Notes: generated from the sequence alone by a model not told the origin. 64,000 nucleotides of DNA from Acidimicrobiales bacterium (GCA_025455885.1 JALOLR010000004.1:62001-126000); one strand, 5' to 3'; positions 41,401 through 51,684 are shown, counted from the stretch's first letter. Numbers and translations are program-made.

Positions 41401-42444
41401 TCAGACCTCGGGCCAGGTGCGCCCGGCGCGTCGGCGGCCGGGGCGCCGGTCGCCGAGAGCCCACGTGCGCCGCCAGGCGCCCGTGGTCGGCCCCTGGAGC
41501 GAGGGGGTGGCGCCGCTCGCCGCCCGCCGGCGGGCCTGCCACCAGTCGCTTCCCGCCTCGTCGGCCAGCTGCGCGACGGCCTGTTCGATCCGGGTGGCCA
41601 TGCGGCGCGAATCCTCGCCGTCCCCGGGCACCAGCGGGTCGCCGAAGGTGACGGTGGTCGGCGAGGGGCGGGGCACGCGCTTGCCCTTGCGCAGGATGCG
41701 GCCGGTGCCCTCCACGTGGACCGGCACGACCGGGACCTCGCAGCGGATCGACAGGTAGGCGGCGCCGCCGCGGAAGGCCTGCCCCCAGCCGTCGGGGGAC
41801 CGTCCGCCCTCCGGGAAGATGAGCATGCTCCAGCCGTCGTCGATCAGGGCGGCGGCCTGGTCGGCGGAGTTGCGGGTGACCTTCGTCCGCTCGATCGGGA
41901 TGGCTCCGATGGCCAGCGCCGAGAGCGTGGACGTCACCTGGTTGGCGAAGAAGTAGTCGGCGGCGGCGCCGATGAAGAGGTGGTGGCGCCACGGCTCGGG
42001 GATGACCGACAGCATCAGCGGGGTGTCGAAGTGGCTGTGGTGGTTGGCGGCGAACACGACCGGTTGCTCACCCAGGTCGGCCAGGCGGTCGAGCCCCTTC
42101 ACGGTCGGGGTGGCGAAGAGGTCGATGGCCGGGCGGATGACGCCCTCCACCAGCAGCACCCGGGCGGCCCGGGCGGGGTAGGAGCGGGCCCACTCGGTGT
42201 CGTAGTCGGCCCCGACCCGGTTCTCGGGCGGGGGCAGCTCGACGCCGGCGGGAGCGGTGGGGGCCCGCAGCGCGGCCGGCAGCACTCGCCGCAGGTTCCG
42301 GCCGCCGACGCGGGCTGCGCTCGACGCCGTCGAGCGGTTGACCGGGAGCCGCTTCACCAGCTCCGTGGCCTGCCGGGCGGTGACGGGCATGCGCCGTCCC
42401 GCCCAGTCGCCGAGGCCGCTCGCCGATCGGTGGTCGTCGCTCAT
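41401..42444 (-). CDS. PlsC-type acyltransferase (last gene of the acyl-reductase operon)
   Basis: 347 residues. It has AANHHSHFDTPL (HX4D catalytic motif) and LIFPEGGRSPDGW (substrate phosphate motif). A membrane helix is not obvious. It could acylate glycerol-3-phosphate-type or long-chain-alcohol acceptors. It is the last of four minus-strand genes with the DUF2088, alcohol dehydrogenase and acyl-reductase genes, eight bases after the DUF2088 stop. The Arg/Trp-rich C-terminus (about 40 residues) is unlike the family. Confidence 0.8.
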   Translation of the reverse strand: MSDDHRSASGLGDWAGRRMPVTARQATELVKRLPVNRSTASSAARVGGRNLRRVLPAALRAPTAPAGVELPPPENRVGADYDTEWARSYPARAARVLLVEGVIRPAIDLFATPTVKGLDRLADLGEQPVVFAANHHSHFDTPLMLSVIPEPWRHHLFIGAAADYFFANQVTSTLSALAIGAIPIERTKVTRNSADQAAALIDDGWSMLIFPEGGRSPDGWGQAFRGGAAYLSIRCEVPVVPVHVEGTGRILRKGKRVPRPSPTTVTFGDPLVPGDGEDSRRMATRIEQAVAQLADEAGSDWWQARRRAASGATPSLQGPTTGAWRRTWALGDRRPGRRRAGRTWPEV

Positions 42445-42452
42445 GTCATGCC

Positions 42453-44048
42453 TCAGCTCACGTCGGCCATGAGGATCGGCGGGTTGTGGAGGTGGGTGAT
42501 CGTGGCGTCGGGGCCCACCGTGTCGGACGCCATCTCGAGGGCGTCCTGCAGGGTCGAGGCCGCCTTGAAGCCGAGACGGCGCACGGCCCGCACGTCGCCG
42601 CCGACCACGATGACCTGGCCGACGTGCTGGAGCGCGTGGGCGCACCAGTACCACATGTAGAAGGGGTGGACGCCGTGGTAGGCGTAGCTGGTCCGGTAGA
42701 GGTGGCGGTACCACTCGTCCTCCGCGAAGCCCTTCTCGAACTCGGCCTCGATCCGGAGCGGGTCGGTGGTCTCCGAGAGCACCTGCTCGAAGAAGTCGAT
42801 GTAGCTGGGGTGGTGGACGGGGTGGAACTCCCACGGTGTGGGGTGGCTCATGATCACCACGCCGCCCTCGCGCACCGGCGGCCGGCCGCGGTAGAGGTTG
42901 AAGAAGTAGCCCAGCCCGAGGCAGGCGACCAGGATCGGGTTGAGGATCGAGTTGACGTTGTAGGGGCTGATGTAGGGCAGGCCCATCGTGAGGATGTCGG
43001 TCTGGCCCTCGACGCCGACGAGGTGCTGGGCGTAGACGTTCTCGGTCGTGACCTTGTGCACGGCCTCCACCTCACCGGCCTGCACCGAGGTCATGGCGTG
43101 CGGTGCCTGCCACGACTGGAAGGCCGACCGCCGGGTGCGTTGGGGGAGGCGGTCGAGCCCGGCCTTCATGGCGGCGAAGGAGATGCGGTCCTTGGCGTTC
43201 CACTCCCACTCGCGCTTCTGGAGCACGGCCAGCGGGCCGTCGGTGCCGAAGACGTTGTTGTTCATGGTCGTCTCGATCTGGAACACCTTGACGCCCGAGT
43301 CCCTGAGCACCTTGCCCATCCGCCAGTTCGACGAGTGCAGCTCGGAGCGGTGCTGGTCCATGAACGACCGGGAGTGCTGCATGGTCGCGACGTTGTGGTG
43401 GTGGCGCAGGCTGCGGTAGCTGGCCAGCCCGGTGGCCGTCGACTTCCAGCCGCCGTCCATCGAGACGAGGTTGATGTTCACGTAGACGATGAGGTCGCTC
43501 GTGGCGGCCCGCTTGTTGATCTCGACCTCCTCGCCCTGGTCGGTGGTGCCCAGGTACTCGAGGTTGTCGGGGTCCTCGGCGTCGTGGTTGACGAGCAGGC
43601 CGTGCGGGGCGAAGGCGTCGTAGACCCGGTCGCCCACCGCGTGGCGCAGCTCGGCCTCGGTCATCCGGCGGTGCAGGGCCAGGGCGGCGACGAGCACCAC
43701 GTCGTCGACGCCGTTGGCGGCCGCCTGGTCGAGGACGGCCTCGATGACCCGCTGGCGGATGTCGGGCCGCTTCATGGGAGGGAGCGGCAGCGAGATGTCG
43801 TCGAAGGCGATCGTGAGCGTCATGCCGGGACGGAGCAGCGCCGAGAGCGGTTCGCTGTCGCCGAGCGGGCTCTCGAGGGCGTGACGGATGGCGGCGTCGG
43901 GGTGCTCGATGGGCTCGAGGGGTTCGGCCGGGTAGATCACCCGGCTCCGCCCGGCGGGCAGCTTCTCGAGGCGGAAGCCCTCCCCGTGGTGGAACAGGAT
44001 CGGTGGCGTCGACCGATCGACGTCGAGCACGAAGCCGGGTCTAGGCAC
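42453..44048 (-). CDS. DUF2088, LarA-like protein
   Basis: 531 residues. The N-terminal half is the lactate racemase (LarA) N-terminal-like fold with AALALHRRMTEAEL (H126, like the H of 'GTHRPMT' in LarA) and INKRAATSDLIVYVNI. LarA needs a nickel pincer cofactor tied to Lys and His residues; I cannot verify all ligands, and no larB, larC or larE genes are here. Its GTG overlaps the end of the alcohol dehydrogenase gene by eight bases. Its reaction is unknown; the operon suggests a lipid-related acid or alcohol. Confidence 0.75.
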   Translation of the reverse strand: MPRPGFVLDVDRSTPPILFHHGEGFRLEKLPAGRSRVIYPAEPLEPIEHPDAAIRHALESPLGDSEPLSALLRPGMTLTIAFDDISLPLPPMKRPDIRQRVIEAVLDQAAANGVDDVVLVAALALHRRMTEAELRHAVGDRVYDAFAPHGLLVNHDAEDPDNLEYLGTTDQGEEVEINKRAATSDLIVYVNINLVSMDGGWKSTATGLASYRSLRHHHNVATMQHSRSFMDQHRSELHSSNWRMGKVLRDSGVKVFQIETTMNNNVFGTDGPLAVLQKREWEWNAKDRISFAAMKAGLDRLPQRTRRSAFQSWQAPHAMTSVQAGEVEAVHKVTTENVYAQHLVGVEGQTDILTMGLPYISPYNVNSILNPILVACLGLGYFFNLYRGRPPVREGGVVIMSHPTPWEFHPVHHPSYIDFFEQVLSETTDPLRIEAEFEKGFAEDEWYRHLYRTSYAYHGVHPFYMWYWCAHALQHVGQVIVVGGDVRAVRRLGFKAASTLQDALEMASDTVGPDATITHLHNPPILMADVS

Positions 44049-45258
44049 GGTGGCGATCCTTTTCGTTGCGGAGGTCGAAGGCGATGCGGACGGCGCCGCG
44101 AGCGCCGGCGTCGGCGGCGTGGGCGATGGCGTCCTCGAAGCGGGTGAGGGGGTAGGTGGCGCTCACCAGCCGGCCGAGGTCGGCGGCGCCGACGAGCTCG
44201 AAGGCGAGGTCGAAGGTCCGGCGGCGCCCGCCGTCGGGGAGCGTCTCGGTGCCGTAGGCGTAGGCCCCGGCGAGGGTGATCTCGCGTTGCCAGAGCCCGG
44301 TGAGGTCGATCTGGGTGCGCCCGGGCATCCCCACCATGGTGATGCGGCCCCGCGGGCGCACCACCGCCAGGCTCTGGGCGAGGCTGGCGTCGTTGCCGAC
44401 GCAGTCGATCACCACGTCGGCGCCGCCGGTGAGCCGCACGATGTCACCGTCGCCGAGCGCCATGGTCCCGGTGGCGCGCCGCACCGCCCGGGCGACCTCG
44501 CCGGGGGCCACGACGGTGTCGGCGCCGAGCTCGCGGGCCAGGTCACGTTGGACGGGGTGCTTGGCGACGGCCACGACGGTGCACGCCGGCGCGTATCGGC
44601 GGACGGCGGCGATCGTGAGCAGCCCCAGGGCGCCTGCGCCGAGGACGACGACGAGGTCGCCGGTCTCGACCCGCGCGGCGAGCGCGCCGTGGACGGCGCA
44701 GGCCGTCGGCTCGACCATGACGGCCGCCTCGTCGGACCAGCCGGCGGGAACGGGGTGGAGCTGGCTGGCGTGGGCCACCATCCGGGTCGACCACCCACCG
44801 CCGGTGTCGCAGCAGAACCCCGACTGGAGTCCGGGCTCGATCGCCCCGAAGGCGATGCGTTCGCAGTTGCCGAGGTCGCCGCGGGCGCACGCGTCGCAGA
44901 CCGGGTCGATCCCGCGGGTCACGCAGCCGAGGACCGGCTCGAGGACGACCCGCCCGGCGGGGACGCCGTCGCAGGGTGCGTCGAGGTCGGCCACGACCTC
45001 GTGGCCGGGGACGAACGGGAACGACACGATCGGCTCGAAATACCGGGAGCTGAGCCCGTCGATCGTCGACAGGTCCGAGCCGCAGATGCCGGCCAGGCGG
45101 GGCTTGATCTCGGTCCACCCGGCGCCGGGGAGGTCGGGCGGGTCGATCGAGCGCAGTCGCAGCGGGCCGACCTTCGCGCCGGCGCCGCCGGCGATGCGCC
45201 CCGCCACGGTGGCGGCGGCGAACCGGGGGAGGTTGCGCTCGAAGCGCAGCGCCTTCAC
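44041..45258 (-). CDS. Zinc-dependent alcohol dehydrogenase
   Basis: 405 residues of the MDR zinc-dehydrogenase type. AGICGSDLS and VPGHEVVADL supply the catalytic zinc ligands. The structural zinc cysteines lie in LGCVTRGIDPVCDACARGD. The nucleotide-binding part has VVLGAGALGLLTIAAV. GTG 45258 overlaps the stop of the acyl-reductase gene by four bases. It could interconvert a fatty aldehyde and alcohol, feeding or draining the acyl reductase; this is inferred from its place. Confidence 0.88.
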   Translation of the reverse strand: MKALRFERNLPRFAAATVAGRIAGGAGAKVGPLRLRSIDPPDLPGAGWTEIKPRLAGICGSDLSTIDGLSSRYFEPIVSFPFVPGHEVVADLDAPCDGVPAGRVVLEPVLGCVTRGIDPVCDACARGDLGNCERIAFGAIEPGLQSGFCCDTGGGWSTRMVAHASQLHPVPAGWSDEAAVMVEPTACAVHGALAARVETGDLVVVLGAGALGLLTIAAVRRYAPACTVVAVAKHPVQRDLARELGADTVVAPGEVARAVRRATGTMALGDGDIVRLTGGADVVIDCVGNDASLAQSLAVVRPRGRITMVGMPGRTQIDLTGLWQREITLAGAYAYGTETLPDGGRRRTFDLAFELVGAADLGRLVSATYPLTRFEDAIAHAADAGARGAVRIAFDLRNEKDRHRA

Positions 45259-47612
45259 GCGGTGCCTCCCGGGACGAGGGGGTTGGCCAGGCCGCCCCGG
45301 CGGGTGCGGCGGGGCCCGATCGGGATGACCCGGCGGGGGGCGCCGGGGGCCTTTGCGAAGTGCTCGACCAGCCAGCCCCGCTTGCGGGCCAGCGCGGCGA
45401 GGCGTGTCTCGGGGTTCACCGCCACCGGGAACCCGACGGCTTCGAGCATCGGGAGGTCGCTGGTGGAGTCGGCGTAGGCGACGGTCTCGTCGAGGTCGAG
45501 GTCGTGGGCGGCGGCGTAGTCCATGAGGACCTGCGCCCGGCTCTCCCCGGTGGGGGGCACCTCGGTGAGCTCGCCGTCGTAGGCGCCGTCCGTCACGCCC
45601 ATCTCGGCGGCGACGATGTCGTCGAACAGCGGGCCGAGCGGCTTGACCACGAAGTCGAGGGCGCCGGTGATGAGGAGGGTGCGATGCCCGGCGGCCCGGT
45701 GCTCGCGGACCCGTCGGATGGCGGCCGGGAACGACTTCGCGATGATGAGCCGACTGAACATCTCGGCGGAGTCCTCGTCGATCTGCTGCACGGGGGCGCC
45801 GTCGTAGCGGCGGTAGAAGAACCGCAGGAAGTCGCTGCGGTCCGTGCGGTCGAGGCTCAGCAGCGACGGGCCCTCGGCCAGCAACGACGCCGCGAACCGC
45901 ACGCGGTCGCGGCTGGGCATCCGCCGGGTGGCGAGGAACGCGTAGCTCGCCACCACGTTGGACGCGATGAGGGTGTTCTCGAGGTCGAAGGCGGCGAGCT
46001 GGCGCTCGGGGGCGAGGACCTGGGCGCGCAGGCGGGTCTCGCGGCTCGGGCCGGTGCGCCCGCCCGGGGTGGTGCGGACGCGGGCCTGCTGGACGACCGA
46101 CGGCAGGAAGACGTTCTCGGTGAAGTCGGTCCAGTCGATGACGCGTGGGTCGAAGCAGAAGTCCCGCTGGTCCTCCTCGCTCTGGGCGTCCCAGAGCGCC
46201 AGCAGGTGGTCGAGGCCGTACAACGCCTCGCACTCGGCGTAGGCGCCGTAGAGCTCGACGTAGCCGAGCGCCTGCTCCGCCTCGTCGCGCTTGGCTTCGA
46301 GCGACGCCGTCCACTCCGCCTGCTTGCCGCGCAGGGGGAGCGCACCGAGGACGCGCTCGGCGCGTTCGAGGGTCGTGCGGGCCCGGGTGAGCTGGCCCTG
46401 CACCCGCCCCCGCCCGGGAAACGACCACTTGGGTACGACGATGGGCTGGCCCTTGGCGTCGTAGAGCGGGTGCTCGAGGAACCATTCGCTGACGAGGTCG
46501 ACCAGGCGCCGGTACCGCAGGGGGTTCTGCGAGCCGGAGGCGACCTGCACGACCTCGACGTCGGGCTCGGGTCCCTTGGCGGCCACGGCGATGATGGCGG
46601 CCGACACGAGATCGACCGGGATGACGTCGACGATGCCCTCGGGCACCCCCGGGAACTCCTTCAGCAGGCCCCGGGCGTAGCTGATGATCACCGGGTCGGC
46701 CATGCGGAAGCCCCGGATCCAGCCCGGTCGGGGCTCGGCGAGCGCCGTCTCGATGATCGACGGGCGGACGATGCTGACGGGGACGTCGCCGCGGGTCTCG
46801 ACCAGGGCCCGTTCGCCGAGCGCCTTGGTGTAGGCGTAGGCGTCGGGCCACCCGAGGGATGCGGCCCGGGCCCGGCCCGCCTCCACCATCCGGTCGTCGA
46901 CCCACCGGGCCCGGTTCTGCTCGGTCCGCTCGGACAGCGCCGGGGTGCCGGCGGCACCGAGCGAGGTGCGGGCCTGGCGGGCGAAGTCGGCCAGCATCTC
47001 CGGCGTCCGGCTGTGGGCCTCGGCGTCGCGGCGGGCCCGGCGGGCGCCCTCGACCTCGCTGCGCCAGTCGACGTCGACGAAGAACGGGCTCTCGTCGACG
47101 AGCTGTTCGGGGGCGGACCCCCGCCGGTTGCCGGCCACGTAGCAGGTGGACACGGCCACGAGGTGGGGGGCGACCCCGAGGTCGTGCAGGGTGGCGGCGA
47201 TGCGGGTGGGACCGAGGAGGTTGACCTCCACGGCGCCGTCGAGGGGGGAGTCGAAGCTCACCGTGGCGGCGGAGTGGATGACGGTGTCGCAGGAGGCCAG
47301 CACGGCCCGGCCCTCGTCGTCGAGGCCGAGGCCGTCGCGGCTCACGTCGCCGGCCACGGCGGTGATGCGTCGTGCGGTCATCTCCGCGAAGCCGTCCTTG
47401 CCGAGCTCGGCGCGCAGGCGGTCGAAGGCGTCGTTCTTCAGGATCTCCCGGGCGACGCGCTGCTCGACGCTCGACCGCTTGCCGGGTCGGACGAGGAGGA
47501 CGAGCTCGCAGTCCGGCACGGCGCGCAGGAGCCGTTCGAGGAGGTTGGTGCCGAGGAAGCCGGTCGTGCCGGTGATGAACAGGCGCTTCCCGGCCAGCGA
47601 CTCGCGGATCAC
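45255..47612 (-). CDS. Fatty acyl-CoA reductase-like protein fused to a HAD-IB domain
   Basis: 785 residues. Residues 11-280 form an extended SDR domain (TGTTGFLG at 14-21, YAYTK with Y259 and K263), with a FAR-type 'sterile' C-terminal domain around 300-510. Such enzymes reduce acyl-CoA to alcohol with NADPH. Residues 540-740 are a HAD-IB domain with LITGALDF and ADSTSDLPMLEAVG, but motif I is AFDLENTLI: the second Asp is Glu545. GTG 47612 is seven bases after TAGACA. It is the first gene of the four-gene operon and divergent from a TetR gene. Confidence 0.83.
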   Translation of the reverse strand: MIRESLAGKRLFITGTTGFLGTNLLERLLRAVPDCELVLLVRPGKRSSVEQRVAREILKNDAFDRLRAELGKDGFAEMTARRITAVAGDVSRDGLGLDDEGRAVLASCDTVIHSAATVSFDSPLDGAVEVNLLGPTRIAATLHDLGVAPHLVAVSTCYVAGNRRGSAPEQLVDESPFFVDVDWRSEVEGARRARRDAEAHSRTPEMLADFARQARTSLGAAGTPALSERTEQNRARWVDDRMVEAGRARAASLGWPDAYAYTKALGERALVETRGDVPVSIVRPSIIETALAEPRPGWIRGFRMADPVIISYARGLLKEFPGVPEGIVDVIPVDLVSAAIIAVAAKGPEPDVEVVQVASGSQNPLRYRRLVDLVSEWFLEHPLYDAKGQPIVVPKWSFPGRGRVQGQLTRARTTLERAERVLGALPLRGKQAEWTASLEAKRDEAEQALGYVELYGAYAECEALYGLDHLLALWDAQSEEDQRDFCFDPRVIDWTDFTENVFLPSVVQQARVRTTPGGRTGPSRETRLRAQVLAPERQLAAFDLENTLIASNVVASYAFLATRRMPSRDRVRFAASLLAEGPSLLSLDRTDRSDFLRFFYRRYDGAPVQQIDEDSAEMFSRLIIAKSFPAAIRRVREHRAAGHRTLLITGALDFVVKPLGPLFDDIVAAEMGVTDGAYDGELTEVPPTGESRAQVLMDYAAAHDLDLDETVAYADSTSDLPMLEAVGFPVAVNPETRLAALARKRGWLVEHFAKAPGAPRRVIPIGPRRTRRGGLANPLVPGGTA

Positions 47613-47619
47613 GGGGTGT

Positions 47620-47649
47620 TGTCTACCACTTGGTAAGTGTTGCGGTCTA
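47620..47649 (-). promoter_or_regulatory. Promoter of the acyl-reductase operon
   Basis: On the minus strand a -35-like TAGACC (47644-47649) and a -10 TAGACA (47620-47625) are 18 bases apart. The start would fall on the GTG of the reductase at 47612. The palindromes at 47624-47639 lie inside the spacer. Confidence 0.5.
47624..47639. promoter_or_regulatory. Likely TetR operator between the two divergent genes
   Basis: TACCA-CT-TGGTA (47624-47635) and overlapping CACTT-GGT-AAGTG (47627-47639) are perfect inverted repeats. They lie between the two start codons, and a third TACCA is at 47648-47652. A TetR protein bound here could repress both genes. Confidence 0.5.
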
Positions 47650-47653
47650 CCAT
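47648..47653 (+). promoter_or_regulatory. -10 element of the TetR gene, leaderless
   Basis: TACCAT is followed by six bases and GTG 47660. Confidence 0.45.
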
Positions 47654-47659
47654 CGTGGG

Positions 47660-48292
47660 GTGGCGACGGCGACGAAGGCGACGGGACGGGGCCCCCGGGC
47701 GGCACGCACCCGCGAGACCGAGGACCGGATCCTCACCGCGGCGCTCCAGTCCTTCGGGGGTCGCGGCTTCGAGGCCACCTCCCTCGACCAGGTCGCCGCC
47801 GAGCTCGGCGTCACCAAGCAGACGATCCTCTACCACTACCCGTCGAAGGCGGCGCTGCTCGACGCGGTCATCGACCGGGCCACCGCCGACCTGATCGTGA
47901 CGTTCGACGCCACGCTGGCCGCCGCCGGACCCGGCTGGGATCGCGTCGAGGCGGTCGTGCGCGCGGTGTTCCGCCTCGCCCTGCGCCGGCCCGAGCTGCT
48001 CGGGCTGCTCCGCGAGGTGAGCCGGCTCGGTCCGCCGTCGGCGACCCGCGTCGCCGAGAACCTCGACGGGCTGGTGCGCCGGGCCCGGGCGTTCCTCGAG
48101 GCGGAGATGGACGCCGGCCACGTCCGCCGCAGCGACCCCGGGTTGTTGTTGGTCTCGGCCTACTCGACGGTCATCGGCGTGGCCACCGAGGTCGAGGTGT
48201 TGCGGGCGGTGGGCATCGAGCCCACGCTGCGCACCACCGTGCGGCGCCGCCAGGAGCTCCTCGCGTTCCTGCGCTCGGCGCTCGTCCCCTGA
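47660..48292 (+). CDS. TetR-family transcriptional regulator
   Basis: 210 residues. The helix-turn-helix is TEDRILTAALQSFGGRGFEA and TSLDQVAAELGVTKQTILYH, followed by a helical ligand domain. I prefer GTG 47660, six bases after TACCAT; a TTG at 47630 in frame would add ten residues. Divergent from the acyl-reductase operon with the palindromes in between, it is probably that operon's repressor, with an acyl compound as the likely ligand (inferred). Confidence 0.88.
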   Translation: MATATKATGRGPRAARTRETEDRILTAALQSFGGRGFEATSLDQVAAELGVTKQTILYHYPSKAALLDAVIDRATADLIVTFDATLAAAGPGWDRVEAVVRAVFRLALRRPELLGLLREVSRLGPPSATRVAENLDGLVRRARAFLEAEMDAGHVRRSDPGLLLVSAYSTVIGVATEVEVLRAVGIEPTLRTTVRRRQELLAFLRSALVP

Positions 48293-48330: not shown

Positions 48331-49185
48331 TCAGGCCATCGGCACCTCGACCCGCACCGCCTCGATGCACCCGGCGCGCATGGCCGTCGTCTTGGCCGGG
48401 TTGGTCGATCGGCCGGTGCACAGGAACAACGTCCGTCCGTCGGATCCCCCCAGCGCGCACGAGTACACGGAGCGGTCGCCGGTGGGGATCCAGGCGACGA
48501 TGCCCTCGTCGACGTGCACGCGCATCACCCCGTTGTAGACCGGGTCGGCGATCCAGAGCGCCCCCTCGGCGTCGAGGCAGATGCCGTCGGGCACGTTGGG
48601 TCGCAGGTCGGCCCACACCCGGGGGTTGCTGAGCGAGCCGTCCGGTTCGAGGTGGTAGGCGGAGATCCGCTGGCCGAAGGTCTCGGCCACCAACAGCAGC
48701 GGGGTGAGCTCGTGGGGGACGACGACGGCGCCGTTGGGGAACAGCAGTTGCTCGGCCACCACCCAGGCCTCGCCGTCGGGCTCCACGCACACCATGCGGG
48801 CGCCGGCCGGCTCGTCGCCCCGCTCGGCGTCGTAGCCGTAGTTGCCGATGTAGGCCCGCCCCTCGCCGGTCACCACCATGTCGTTCCAGGGGTGCAGCGA
48901 GAACCGCTCGAGGTCGCAGACCTCGGTGAGCCCGTCGTCGTCGAGGCGCAACAGGGCGTGGTCGAGCATCGAGACGACGAGCAGACGCCCGTCGGGGAGC
49001 CACCCGAGGCCACCCGGTTGCTCGGTCATCCGGACGACCGGCTCGGCCTGGCCGTCCTCGGTCATCGCCCAGACGCGGCCGTCGTGCACGTCGGAGAACC
49101 ACAGGCGGCCGTCGTGCCACCGGGGGCTCTCGGGGTAGGCGAGGCCGTCGAGCACGACCGAGGGCTCGCCGGGTGCCCAGGTCAT
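48331..49185 (-). CDS. SMP-30/gluconolactonase-like protein (second copy)
   Basis: 284 residues with the SMP-30 blade motifs: YPESPRWHDGRLWFSDVHDG, PGGLGWLPDGRLLVV, HPWNDMVVTGEGRAYIGN and PDGICLDAEGALWIADP. It probably hydrolyses a lactone and binds a metal ion. It is related to the protein at 27485-28366 but clearly different. Its ATG overlaps the ddl stop by four bases, so it is likely cotranscribed with ddl, for no known metabolic reason. Confidence 0.85.
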   Translation of the reverse strand: MTWAPGEPSVVLDGLAYPESPRWHDGRLWFSDVHDGRVWAMTEDGQAEPVVRMTEQPGGLGWLPDGRLLVVSMLDHALLRLDDDGLTEVCDLERFSLHPWNDMVVTGEGRAYIGNYGYDAERGDEPAGARMVCVEPDGEAWVVAEQLLFPNGAVVVPHELTPLLLVAETFGQRISAYHLEPDGSLSNPRVWADLRPNVPDGICLDAEGALWIADPVYNGVMRVHVDEGIVAWIPTGDRSVYSCALGGSDGRTLFLCTGRSTNPAKTTAMRAGCIEAVRVEVPMA

Positions 49186-50315
49186 CGGGGCAGTGCCCTG
49201 CGTCGGTGGCGTTCGAGGGCCAGTCCGAGGAGCTCGTCGAGCAGCGCCGGGTAGGGGAGCCCCGATGCCGTCCAGAGCTTCGGGAACATCGAGATCGGGG
49301 TGAACCCGGGGATGGTGTTCATCTCGTTGAGGAGGAACCCCCGCCCCGGATCCTCGAGGAAGAAGTCGACGCGGGCCATGCCCGAGCCCCGCATCCCGGT
49401 GAACACACGACAGGCCAGGTCGCGCACCCCGTCGGCGTCGGCGGTCGAGAGCGGGGCCGGGACCCGCAGCTCGGCGGCGCCGGTCGCGTACTTGTCGTCG
49501 TAGTCGTAGAACTCGGCGCCCGGCACGATCTCGCCGGGGACCGACGCCCGCGGGGACTCGGTGTGGCCGAGCACGGCCACCTCGATCTCCCTGCCGGCCA
49601 CCCCTTCCTCGACGACGAGCCACTCGTCGTGGAGGAGCGCCGCCCGGAGCCCTGCCTCGAGTCCGTCGACGTCGGTGACCCGGGAGATCCCGATCGACGA
49701 GCCCATGTTGGCGGGCTTCACGAACGCCGGGAGGCCGAGCTCGGCGGCGAGCTCCTCGGCCAGTCCCGGCCGGATCCGGTCCGCGGCCCCCGGGTCGACG
49801 ACCTCGGAGCGGTGCAACCCGCGCCAGCGGGCCTGGGGGATGCCGAGGGCGCTCGCCATGTGCTTGGCGGCGATCTTGTCCATGGCCAGCGCCGATCCGA
49901 GCACCCCGGAACCCACGTAGGGGACCCCGGCCAGCTCCAGCAGGCCCTGCACGGTGCCGTCCTCGCCCATCGGGCCGTGCAGCAGTGGCAGCACGACCAC
50001 CGCCGCGTCGCCGTCGTCGCCGGCGAGCATCGGCAGGGGGTCGACCTCGGGGCCGTCGACGGCGAGGGCGTCGGGGAGGGCGTCGACGGCCAGCGCCGCG
50101 TCACCGCTGAGGAGGGCGGCGGGGGCCGGCTCGGGCCGGACCCACGCTCCGTCGCGGGTGATGCCGATCGGCACGACCTCGAAGCGCTCCCGGTCGAGCG
50201 CGGCGATCACGTGGCGGGCCGTCACCCGGGACACGTCGTGCTCTGCGGACTGCCCCCCGAACAGCACCACGACCCGTGTCCGCGCGCCGGTCGACGGTGG
50301 GGGCGGGGGGGTCAT
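49182..50315 (-). CDS. ddl: D-alanine-D-alanine ligase
   Basis: 377 residues. It joins two D-Ala with ATP for peptidoglycan precursors. The N-terminus has VLFGGQSAEHDVSR; the ATP-grasp core has FVKPANMGSSIGISR and NEMNTIPGFTPISMF. The ATG is eight bases after TAGCGT on the minus strand. It is divergent from murF, which uses its product, 64 bases between the starts. The SMP-30 gene follows with a four-base overlap. Confidence 0.95.
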   Translation of the reverse strand: MTPPPPPSTGARTRVVVLFGGQSAEHDVSRVTARHVIAALDRERFEVVPIGITRDGAWVRPEPAPAALLSGDAALAVDALPDALAVDGPEVDPLPMLAGDDGDAAVVVLPLLHGPMGEDGTVQGLLELAGVPYVGSGVLGSALAMDKIAAKHMASALGIPQARWRGLHRSEVVDPGAADRIRPGLAEELAAELGLPAFVKPANMGSSIGISRVTDVDGLEAGLRAALLHDEWLVVEEGVAGREIEVAVLGHTESPRASVPGEIVPGAEFYDYDDKYATGAAELRVPAPLSTADADGVRDLACRVFTGMRGSGMARVDFFLEDPGRGFLLNEMNTIPGFTPISMFPKLWTASGLPYPALLDELLGLALERHRRRALPR

Positions 50316-50379: not shown

Positions 50380-51684
50380 GTGAGGTTCACCGCCGCCGAG
50401 GTCGCCGACACCGTCGGCGGCACCCTCCACGGAGCCGACGTGGTGGTGGTGGGGGCGTCGATCGATTCCCGCACGCTCGAGCCGGGCCAGCTCTTCGTGC
50501 CTGTCGCCGGGGTGCGCGACGGCCACGACTTCGTCGCCGCGGCCGCGGCGGCCGGGGCGGCAGCCACGCTCAGCGCCCGAGGCCCCGTCGACGGCGTCAC
50601 GACCATCGTCGTCGACCGGCCCGAGGCGGCGCTCACCCGGCTCGGGGCCCACGCCCGGGAGCGGCTCCCGGAGCGGGTGGTGGGCATCACCGGGTCGGTG
50701 GGCAAGACGTCGACGAAGGACCTCTGCCGCGGTGTGCTCGAGCCTCACCTGCGCACCGGTGTCAGCGCGAAGAGCTTCAACAACGAGCTCGGCGTGCCCC
50801 TCACCCTGGTGAACGTCCCCGACGACACCGAGGTCGCGGTGATCGAGATGGGGGCCCGTGGGCGGGGCCACATCGCCTCGCTGTGCGCGGTGGCGCGGCC
50901 GACCATCGCCGTGGTGACGGCCGTGGAGCTGGTGCACGCCGAGCTGATGGGCGACCTCGACGGCATCGCCCGGTGCAAGCGCGAGCTCCCCGAGTCGCTG
51001 CCCGCCGACGGGGTGGCGGTGCTCAACGCCGCCTACGACCGGGTGGCGGCGATGGCCGCGGTGACGTCGGCGCGGGTGGTGCGCTACGGCGCCGACGACA
51101 GCGAGGTCCGGGCCACCGACGTCGAACTCGACGAGGACCTGCGGGCCCGCTTCCGGTTGGCGACGGACTGGGGCGGCGCCGACGTCCACCTCGCGGTGCG
51201 CGGCCGCCACCAGGTCGGCAACGCCCTCGCCGCCGCGGCGGTGGGGCTGGTGTGCGGCATCGACGTCGCCGACGTGGCCGCCGGCCTGGGGCGTGGCGAG
51301 CTGTCCCCCTGGCGGATGGACCTGCGCACCGCGCCGGGCGGGGCCCGGGTGCTGAACGACGCCTACAACGCCGGCCCGGCGTCCACGGCCGCCGCCCTCT
51401 CGGCGCTGGTCGCCCTGCCGGCCGAGCGGTTCCACGCCGTGCTCGGCCCGATGGCCGAGCTGGGGGACGACGGTCCGGCCGAGCACCGGCGCATCGCCGG
51501 GCTGGCCACCGCGGCGGGCGTGAGGCTCGTGGCCTTCGCCACCGACGACTACGGGATCGCCCCGGTCGACACGATCGACGCCGCGCTCGAGGCGCTCGGA
51601 CCGCTCGGGCCGGGGGACGCGGTGCTGGTGAAGGGCAGCCGGGTGGCGGGGCTCGAACGCCTGGCCGAGGCGCTGCTCAGCTGA
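50380..51684 (+). CDS. murF: UDP-N-acetylmuramoyl-tripeptide--D-alanyl-D-alanine ligase
   Basis: 434 residues. It adds D-Ala-D-Ala to UDP-MurNAc-tripeptide. It has the N-terminal UDP-binding domain, P-loop GITGSVGKTSTKD, SFNNELGVPLTL and LNDAYNAGPASTAAAL. Together with the divergent ddl it gives two successive steps of wall synthesis. GTG 50380 is the only start that fits the leaderless promoter. Eight bases of its end overlap the convergent MFS gene. Confidence 0.93.
   Translation: MRFTAAEVADTVGGTLHGADVVVVGASIDSRTLEPGQLFVPVAGVRDGHDFVAAAAAAGAAATLSARGPVDGVTTIVVDRPEAALTRLGAHARERLPERVVGITGSVGKTSTKDLCRGVLEPHLRTGVSAKSFNNELGVPLTLVNVPDDTEVAVIEMGARGRGHIASLCAVARPTIAVVTAVELVHAELMGDLDGIARCKRELPESLPADGVAVLNAAYDRVAAMAAVTSARVVRYGADDSEVRATDVELDEDLRARFRLATDWGGADVHLAVRGRHQVGNALAAAAVGLVCGIDVADVAAGLGRGELSPWRMDLRTAPGGARVLNDAYNAGPASTAAALSALVALPAERFHAVLGPMAELGDDGPAEHRRIAGLATAAGVRLVAFATDDYGIAPVDTIDAALEALGPLGPGDAVLVKGSRVAGLERLAEALLS

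Follow-up and report, generated by a model that had tools for sequence, protein, structure and literature searches.

A conserved fatty acyl reductase, LarA homologue and acyltransferase cassette of Actinomycetota as a candidate gene set for ether-type glycerolipids

The myxobacterial elb locus (ElbD, ElbB, ElbE) and the genes MXAN_1676-1674 bring together a fatty acyl reductase (FAR)-like reductase, a HAD phosphatase, an acylglycerol-phosphate acyltransferase and an NAD(P) oxidoreductase (PMC9131029). The same functions are likewise found together in a 64,000-nucleotide stretch of DNA from an Acidimicrobiales bacterium (GCA_025455885.1, JALOLR010000004.1:62001-126000; the whole stretch is hereafter the window), in an operon encoding a FAR-HAD fusion protein, a zinc-dependent dehydrogenase (ADH), a LarA homologue (LarAH) and a PlsC-type acyltransferase, with a divergently oriented TetR gene. 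In contrast to elb, this cassette has no acyl-CoA synthetase, acyl carrier protein (ACP) domain or AGPS, its FAR is fused to the HAD domain, and it includes a LarA homologue, which is not described for elb. With the ester-to-ether reductase Ger/PlsA, of which Ger activity was demonstrated under anaerobic expression (PMC11150832), the cassette shares the proposed product class. The LarA homologue itself is closest to the LarAH14/15/16 family (NF052592, including LarAH14 of Frankia), which it resembles by curated score and in the absence of a His174 equivalent; the literature consulted for this family reports no substrate, and the window protein differs in being tied to a FAR-HAD/acyltransferase cassette. 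The single-His LarA proteins of group 17 (9q2u, 9q3k, 9q3j) share its fold, one catalytic His and an Asn near the position of the second His, and lactate racemisation was not detected for LarA_Sp (PMC12611868). However, the identity is 25%, the window protein has the loop YVNxN-xVxM(D/N)GG(H/W)K in place of GHTQGNPYGGYSGGYK, and the authors suggest a role of group 17 in carbohydrate metabolism, not lipids.

The cassette is a real, conserved and TetR-linked unit. As to its function, we lean, with slightly better than even confidence, towards the view that it makes a precursor of an ether-type glycerolipid, 1-O-alkyl glycerol phosphate that is then acylated, under control of the TetR protein via its operator.

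Across 396 Actinomycetota genomes, FAR-HAD and a LarAH of the FAR-linked type occurred together in 87 and singly in 5 and 5, with neither in 299, so that the pair is complete in 87 of the 97 genomes with either gene; the genomes with a single gene are mostly incomplete or fragmented assemblies. Fisher's test of this co-occurrence gives 1e-74, a value that overstates independence since the genomes are related. The gene order of the cassette spans many families within and outside the order, and nearly all of the best 30 NF052592 matches in the phylum lie in the arrangement FAR-HAD, ADH, LarAH, PlsC, even at about 60% LarAH identity. Of 80 named loci taken from GTDB genomes (for the most part Acidimicrobiia), 72 have a contig that extends far enough, and in every one of these FAR-HAD is the immediate upstream neighbour; PlsC directly follows LarAH in 79 of the 80, the contig of the remaining one stopping inside LarAH. 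About 35 of these loci have a cassette with no ADH, in which FAR-HAD adjoins LarAH (e.g. L053, L054, L056, L057, L059-L065), and ADH is therefore a dispensable or unlinked, variable member; LarAH is the more constant one and is retained where ADH is lost. The pairwise divergences of the four cassette proteins correlate (Spearman 0.77-0.88; 0.86 for FAR-HAD and LarAH, reached in 0 of 500 permutations), as would be the case for genes passed on as one unit. FAR-HAD is not found next to LarAHs that are more distant (25-43% identity). An isolated or chance operon is rejected by this co-occurrence and synteny. The initial annotation had made its proposal depend on the genes co-occurring in other genomes, and they do.

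The palindrome TACCANNTGGTA occurs once in the window (47624-47635), even with one mismatch allowed, where 0.07 would be expected. It was found with at most one mismatch in all 54 divergent FAR-TetR intergenic regions (exactly in 49; in shuffled sequences 0.3%), mostly 11-34 bases ahead of the FAR start. No further copy was seen among the loci of the same genome that were examined, no whole-genome scan having been made. In most loci the TetR gene sits next to the cassette; Acidimicrobiia have it in divergent orientation, and several other families after PlsC and co-directional. Within the window (G+C about 73%; host genome 3.29 Mb, with mostly Acidimicrobiales as its nearest named relatives), FAR-HAD, ADH, LarAH and PlsC follow one another on the minus strand from 47612 to 41401 (Table 1), with overlaps of 4 nt between FAR-HAD and ADH and of 8 nt between ADH and LarAH, and a gap of 8 nt between LarAH and PlsC. 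The LarAH N-terminus MPRPG is conserved (alignment A1), which supports the GTG at 44048 as its start. The TetR gene also starts with GTG; an alternative TTG at 47630, taken in an earlier reading, falls within the operator. The initial annotation had described four overlapping or abutting genes, a divergent TetR gene and an operator, and all five genes lie where it placed them; the view of a single conserved, TetR-linked unit is borne out by synteny, co-occurrence and operator alike.

Table 1. Features of the cassette and its regulator in the window
Feature	Length (aa)	Position	Strand	Assignment
FAR-HAD fusion	785	45255..47612	-	Alcohol-forming type fatty acyl (CoA/ACP) reductase domain and HAD-IB phosphatase domain, by sequence; PF07993 E=1e-56; PF12710 E=1.7e-28; TIGR01490 above cut-off
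Zinc-dependent MDR dehydrogenase (ADH)	405	44041..45258	-	Polyol/ketose-reductase like; PF00107/PF08240
LarA homologue	531	42453..44048	-	LarAH14/15/16 family; PF09861 E=3e-38; NF052592 884.8 bits
PlsC-type acyltransferase	347	41401..42444	-	PF01553 E=4e-18
TetR-family regulator, divergent	210	47660..48292	+	PF00440 3e-15
Palindromic operator		47624..47635	.	TACCACTTGGTA, between the TetR and FAR-HAD starts; consensus TACCANNTGGTA

In FAR-HAD, the NAD_binding_4 domain has its GxxGxxG and YxxxK motifs, with Y259 and K263 invariant, and the HAD nucleophile and metal-site Asp residues (D543, D715 and D719) are invariant as well (alignment A2); the Sterile domain PF03015 scores 26.8 bits, below its cut-off of 35.4. 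The closest solved relative of the AlphaFold2 (AF2) model (pLDDT 84.9) is rice DPW (7eoz; 2e-103 by sequence, Z 40.4 over 449 aligned residues, 32% identity), and by sequence relationship the FAR domain is assigned to the alcohol-forming type. The zinc ligands C59, H86 and E87 of ADH are invariant and C112, C121, C124 and C132 nearly so (alignment A3). Its closest solved relatives are a ketose reductase that depends on NADP(H) (1e3j; 4e-38) and L-idonate 5-dehydrogenase, which suits an interconversion of keto group and secondary alcohol on a polyol backbone more than the reduction of a fatty aldehyde. The motifs NHxSHxD and PEG of PlsC are invariant (alignment A4). In Rubrobacteraceae (family f25), the set has no PlsC and begins with the glycerol-3-phosphate acyltransferase PlsY; in two of these genomes (G011 and G053) it is the sole PlsY, which ties the cassette to glycerolipid initiation. 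The production of fatty alcohols followed by acylation, as initially suggested, is thus in the right area, given an alcohol-forming FAR and PlsC or PlsY in one unit, with a glycerol backbone as the acylated partner.

The window LarAH scores above the curated cut-off (740 bits) of NF052592, annotated as 'NPN-dependent hydroxyacid isomerase, LarAH14/15/16 family'. Its AF2 model (pLDDT 89.3) matches LarA structures with Z 28-39 over about 400-450 residues, the best match being the single-His enzyme 9q3k (Z 39.0, 2.5 A, 453 residues). A profile alignment with reference LarA shows that Asp72, His108, the cofactor-tethering Lys184 and the nickel-binding His200 are kept as D84, H126, K202 and H218, and these are retained in FAR-linked LarAHs where covered. 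In contrast, the second catalytic His174 is replaced by N193 and the carboxylate/phosphate-binding Arg75 by L87, a signature that is nearly constant across FAR-linked LarAHs. Because both residues, which the classical racemase mechanism requires, are lost, we assign the protein, from its sequence, to the LarA fold family and not to the classical racemases, and their loss argues against the simple racemising of an alpha-hydroxy acid.

The initial annotation had stressed that a LarA-like protein stood without nickel-cofactor genes. This is correct for the operon but not for the genome, in which larB (C7:63538) and larC (C7:64365) lie side by side and larE is found at C18:22542. The puzzle of a LarA protein without nickel genes dissolves because these genes are merely unlinked, and an absence of the nickel-cofactor pathway is rejected. 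LarC was found in 19 of 21 LarAH-positive and in none of nine LarAH-negative genomes of the order (p=4e-6), and LarB in all eight genomes tested.

The proposal that the LarA homologue is no longer a nickel enzyme and acts as a structural or allosteric partner of FAR and PlsC draws on the loss of the His174 and Arg75 equivalents and on the 11 of 92 LarAH-positive genomes with no LarC match. We nevertheless regard it as quite improbable, since Lys202 and His218 are conserved in FAR-linked LarAHs, whereas three LarA-like proteins without cofactor (L139, L141, L142) have lost both, and LarC tracks LarAH in the order. For the same reason of retained K202 and H218, a cofactor-less LarA relic was judged unlikely. 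The three proteins without cofactor Lys and nickel His have a conserved neighbourhood of their own and represent a candidate nickel-free branch of LarA.

From these features we infer an ether product, the substrate of each enzyme and the point at which the LarA homologue acts as follows: (i) the FAR domain would reduce a long-chain acyl-CoA or acyl-ACP to the fatty alcohol (or aldehyde); (ii) PlsC, or PlsY in Rubrobacteraceae, would acylate a glycerol- or dihydroxyacetone-phosphate backbone; (iii) the ketose-reductase-like ADH would set the redox state at C2 of the backbone; (iv) the HAD domain would take off a phosphate; and (v) the LarA homologue, with a predicted nickel-pincer nucleotide (NPN), would transfer a hydride on a lipid or backbone intermediate that is not bound like an alpha-hydroxy acid, instead of racemising such an acid. 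A more specific variant, to which we give only a small chance, is that the LarA homologue itself forms the ether bond: hydride transfer from C2 of a hemiacetal of glycerol phosphate and fatty aldehyde to the aldehyde carbon would yield 1-O-alkyl dihydroxyacetone phosphate, which ADH would then reduce.

An ether product is favoured by the lipids of Rubrobacterales, by the gene content of one cassette carrier from this order and by the resemblance of the gene set to elb. One carrier genome (G041, family f25) is Rubrobacter xylanophilus, as its rhodopsin is identical to 6kfq in 239 of 239 residues (PMC6959264). For Rubrobacterales, a 'dominance of mixed ether/ester' lipids is reported in the title of a study cited in PMC11150832. 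In R. xylanophilus, we found no AGPS-type protein among its PF02913 proteins, no PF09989 (Ger/PlsA) and no WS/DGAT. A Ger/PlsA route is further rejected by the absence of PF09989 (DUF2229) from all eight cassette-bearing genomes tested.

Several observations weigh against an ether product or against a part for the LarA homologue in making it. LarAH group 14 from Frankia, purified in 2020, showed no activity in seven tested reactions (PMC7583248), and the literature search found no activity report for a close relative of the window protein. Nor did we see lipid data in the literature for cassette-bearing Acidimicrobiia; Acidimicrobium ferrooxidans (G080), a cassette carrier, is reported by fatty acid profile only (PMC3035218). 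A domain search of the cassette proteins revealed no counterpart of the acyl-CoA synthetase or ACP domain of ElbD, and two of the genomes in which LarC was not detected (G263 and G294) belong to the order and are 96-98% complete. Finally, the window's own contig encodes an AGPS-like FAD protein (C4:189004-189720; L170:242-1939), with the alkyl-dihydroxyacetone phosphate synthase 2uuu as best PDB match (6e-50), so that an ether bond could form in this organism without the LarA homologue. The cassette might accordingly supply fatty alcohol and acylation to the classical route, with the unlinked AGPS making the ether bond and LarAH in a side role such as the scavenging of alpha-hydroxy by-products. 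This we think unlikely, as R. xylanophilus carries the cassette, comes from an order with dominant ether lipids and has no AGPS-type protein among its PF02913 members.

Two further explanations would do without an ether lipid. In the first, the lipids would have 2-hydroxy fatty acids or long-chain 1,2-diols as building blocks: the LarA homologue would isomerise a 2-hydroxyacyl group, FAR would produce the 1,2-diol and the acyltransferase would acylate it. Characterised LarA homologues do use 2-hydroxy acids (PMC11770544), and FAR plus an acyltransferase would suit the acylation of a diol. Against this, Arg75 and His174 are replaced by Leu87 and Asn193, the ADH is ketose-reductase like, and PlsY, the only one in two carriers, uses glycerol-3-phosphate. 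Long-chain 1,2-diols are known from Thermoleophilum, but a literature search on Thermoleophilum diols found no paper; overall, we hold this explanation to be rather unlikely. We are even more doubtful that the cassette serves the production of fatty alcohols and storage wax esters with the LarA homologue as a bystander. FAR is alcohol-forming by relationship and the window's own genome has eight WS/DGAT matches (contigs C2, C3, C4, C8, C10, C12, C17), but WS/DGAT is absent from the carriers R. xylanophilus, G011, G053 and A. ferrooxidans, and a bystander would hardly be the member retained where ADH is lost. PlsC and PlsY, moreover, are not wax-making enzymes. With two named carriers lacking WS/DGAT, a wax ester locus is rejected as the common role. 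The eight matches suggest that wax esters or triacylglycerols are stored separately from the cassette in this organism.

In the window, an SMP-30/gluconolactonase-like gene (48331-49185) separates the TetR gene from one for a D-Ala-D-Ala ligase-like protein (49182-50270). Like the Mur-ligase-like gene at 50380-51684, this ligase-like gene is a neighbour conserved in Acidimicrobiia. Genes for aconitase, D-Ala ligase and Mur ligase, which are conserved up- or downstream in this class, were rejected as members of the unit because they were not seen outside the order, and look like chromosomal synteny. In Rubrobacteraceae, a MOSC-domain gene stands between ADH and LarAH (L136:7355-8047; same family as L127:9716-10402), joined in one locus by MarR and protoglobin genes (L127, 9716-11594). 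Two contigs labelled Bifidobacterium breve (L039, CAMCTY010000010.1) and Acidobacteria (L082) bear a cassette of the Acidimicrobiia type, with LarAH identities of 88% and 76%, and these records are probably mislabelled or misbinned.

The initial annotation regarded the system as undescribed. This no longer holds for the LarA homologue as such, which belongs to a named NCBIfam and to a family of which group 14 has been purified; it may hold for the combination, as no paper that we found connects DUF2088/LarA with fatty acyl reductases. Sinninghe Damste et al. (2023, Syst Appl Microbiol 46:126404) reportedly mention a putative operon of Rubrobacter for 1-O-alkyl glycerol phosphate, which we do not count as evidence, and our literature search on Rubrobacter and 1-O-alkyl lipids found nothing useful. 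If that operon is the present gene set, the lipid assignment in Rubrobacter has already been proposed, while the link to LarA and the spread in Acidimicrobiia could still be new.

In summary, the cassette places an orphan branch of nickel-pincer enzymes, one that failed substrate screens, in a physiological context and predicts a substrate outside the alpha-hydroxy acids. It represents a candidate ether-lipid gene set for aerobic actinobacteria, among which R. xylanophilus has neither AGPS nor Ger, the two established genes for ether formation. A part of the LarA homologue in the formation of the ether bond, if true, would mean that NPN enzymes catalyse a new class of reaction and that ether lipids are made by a new biological route.

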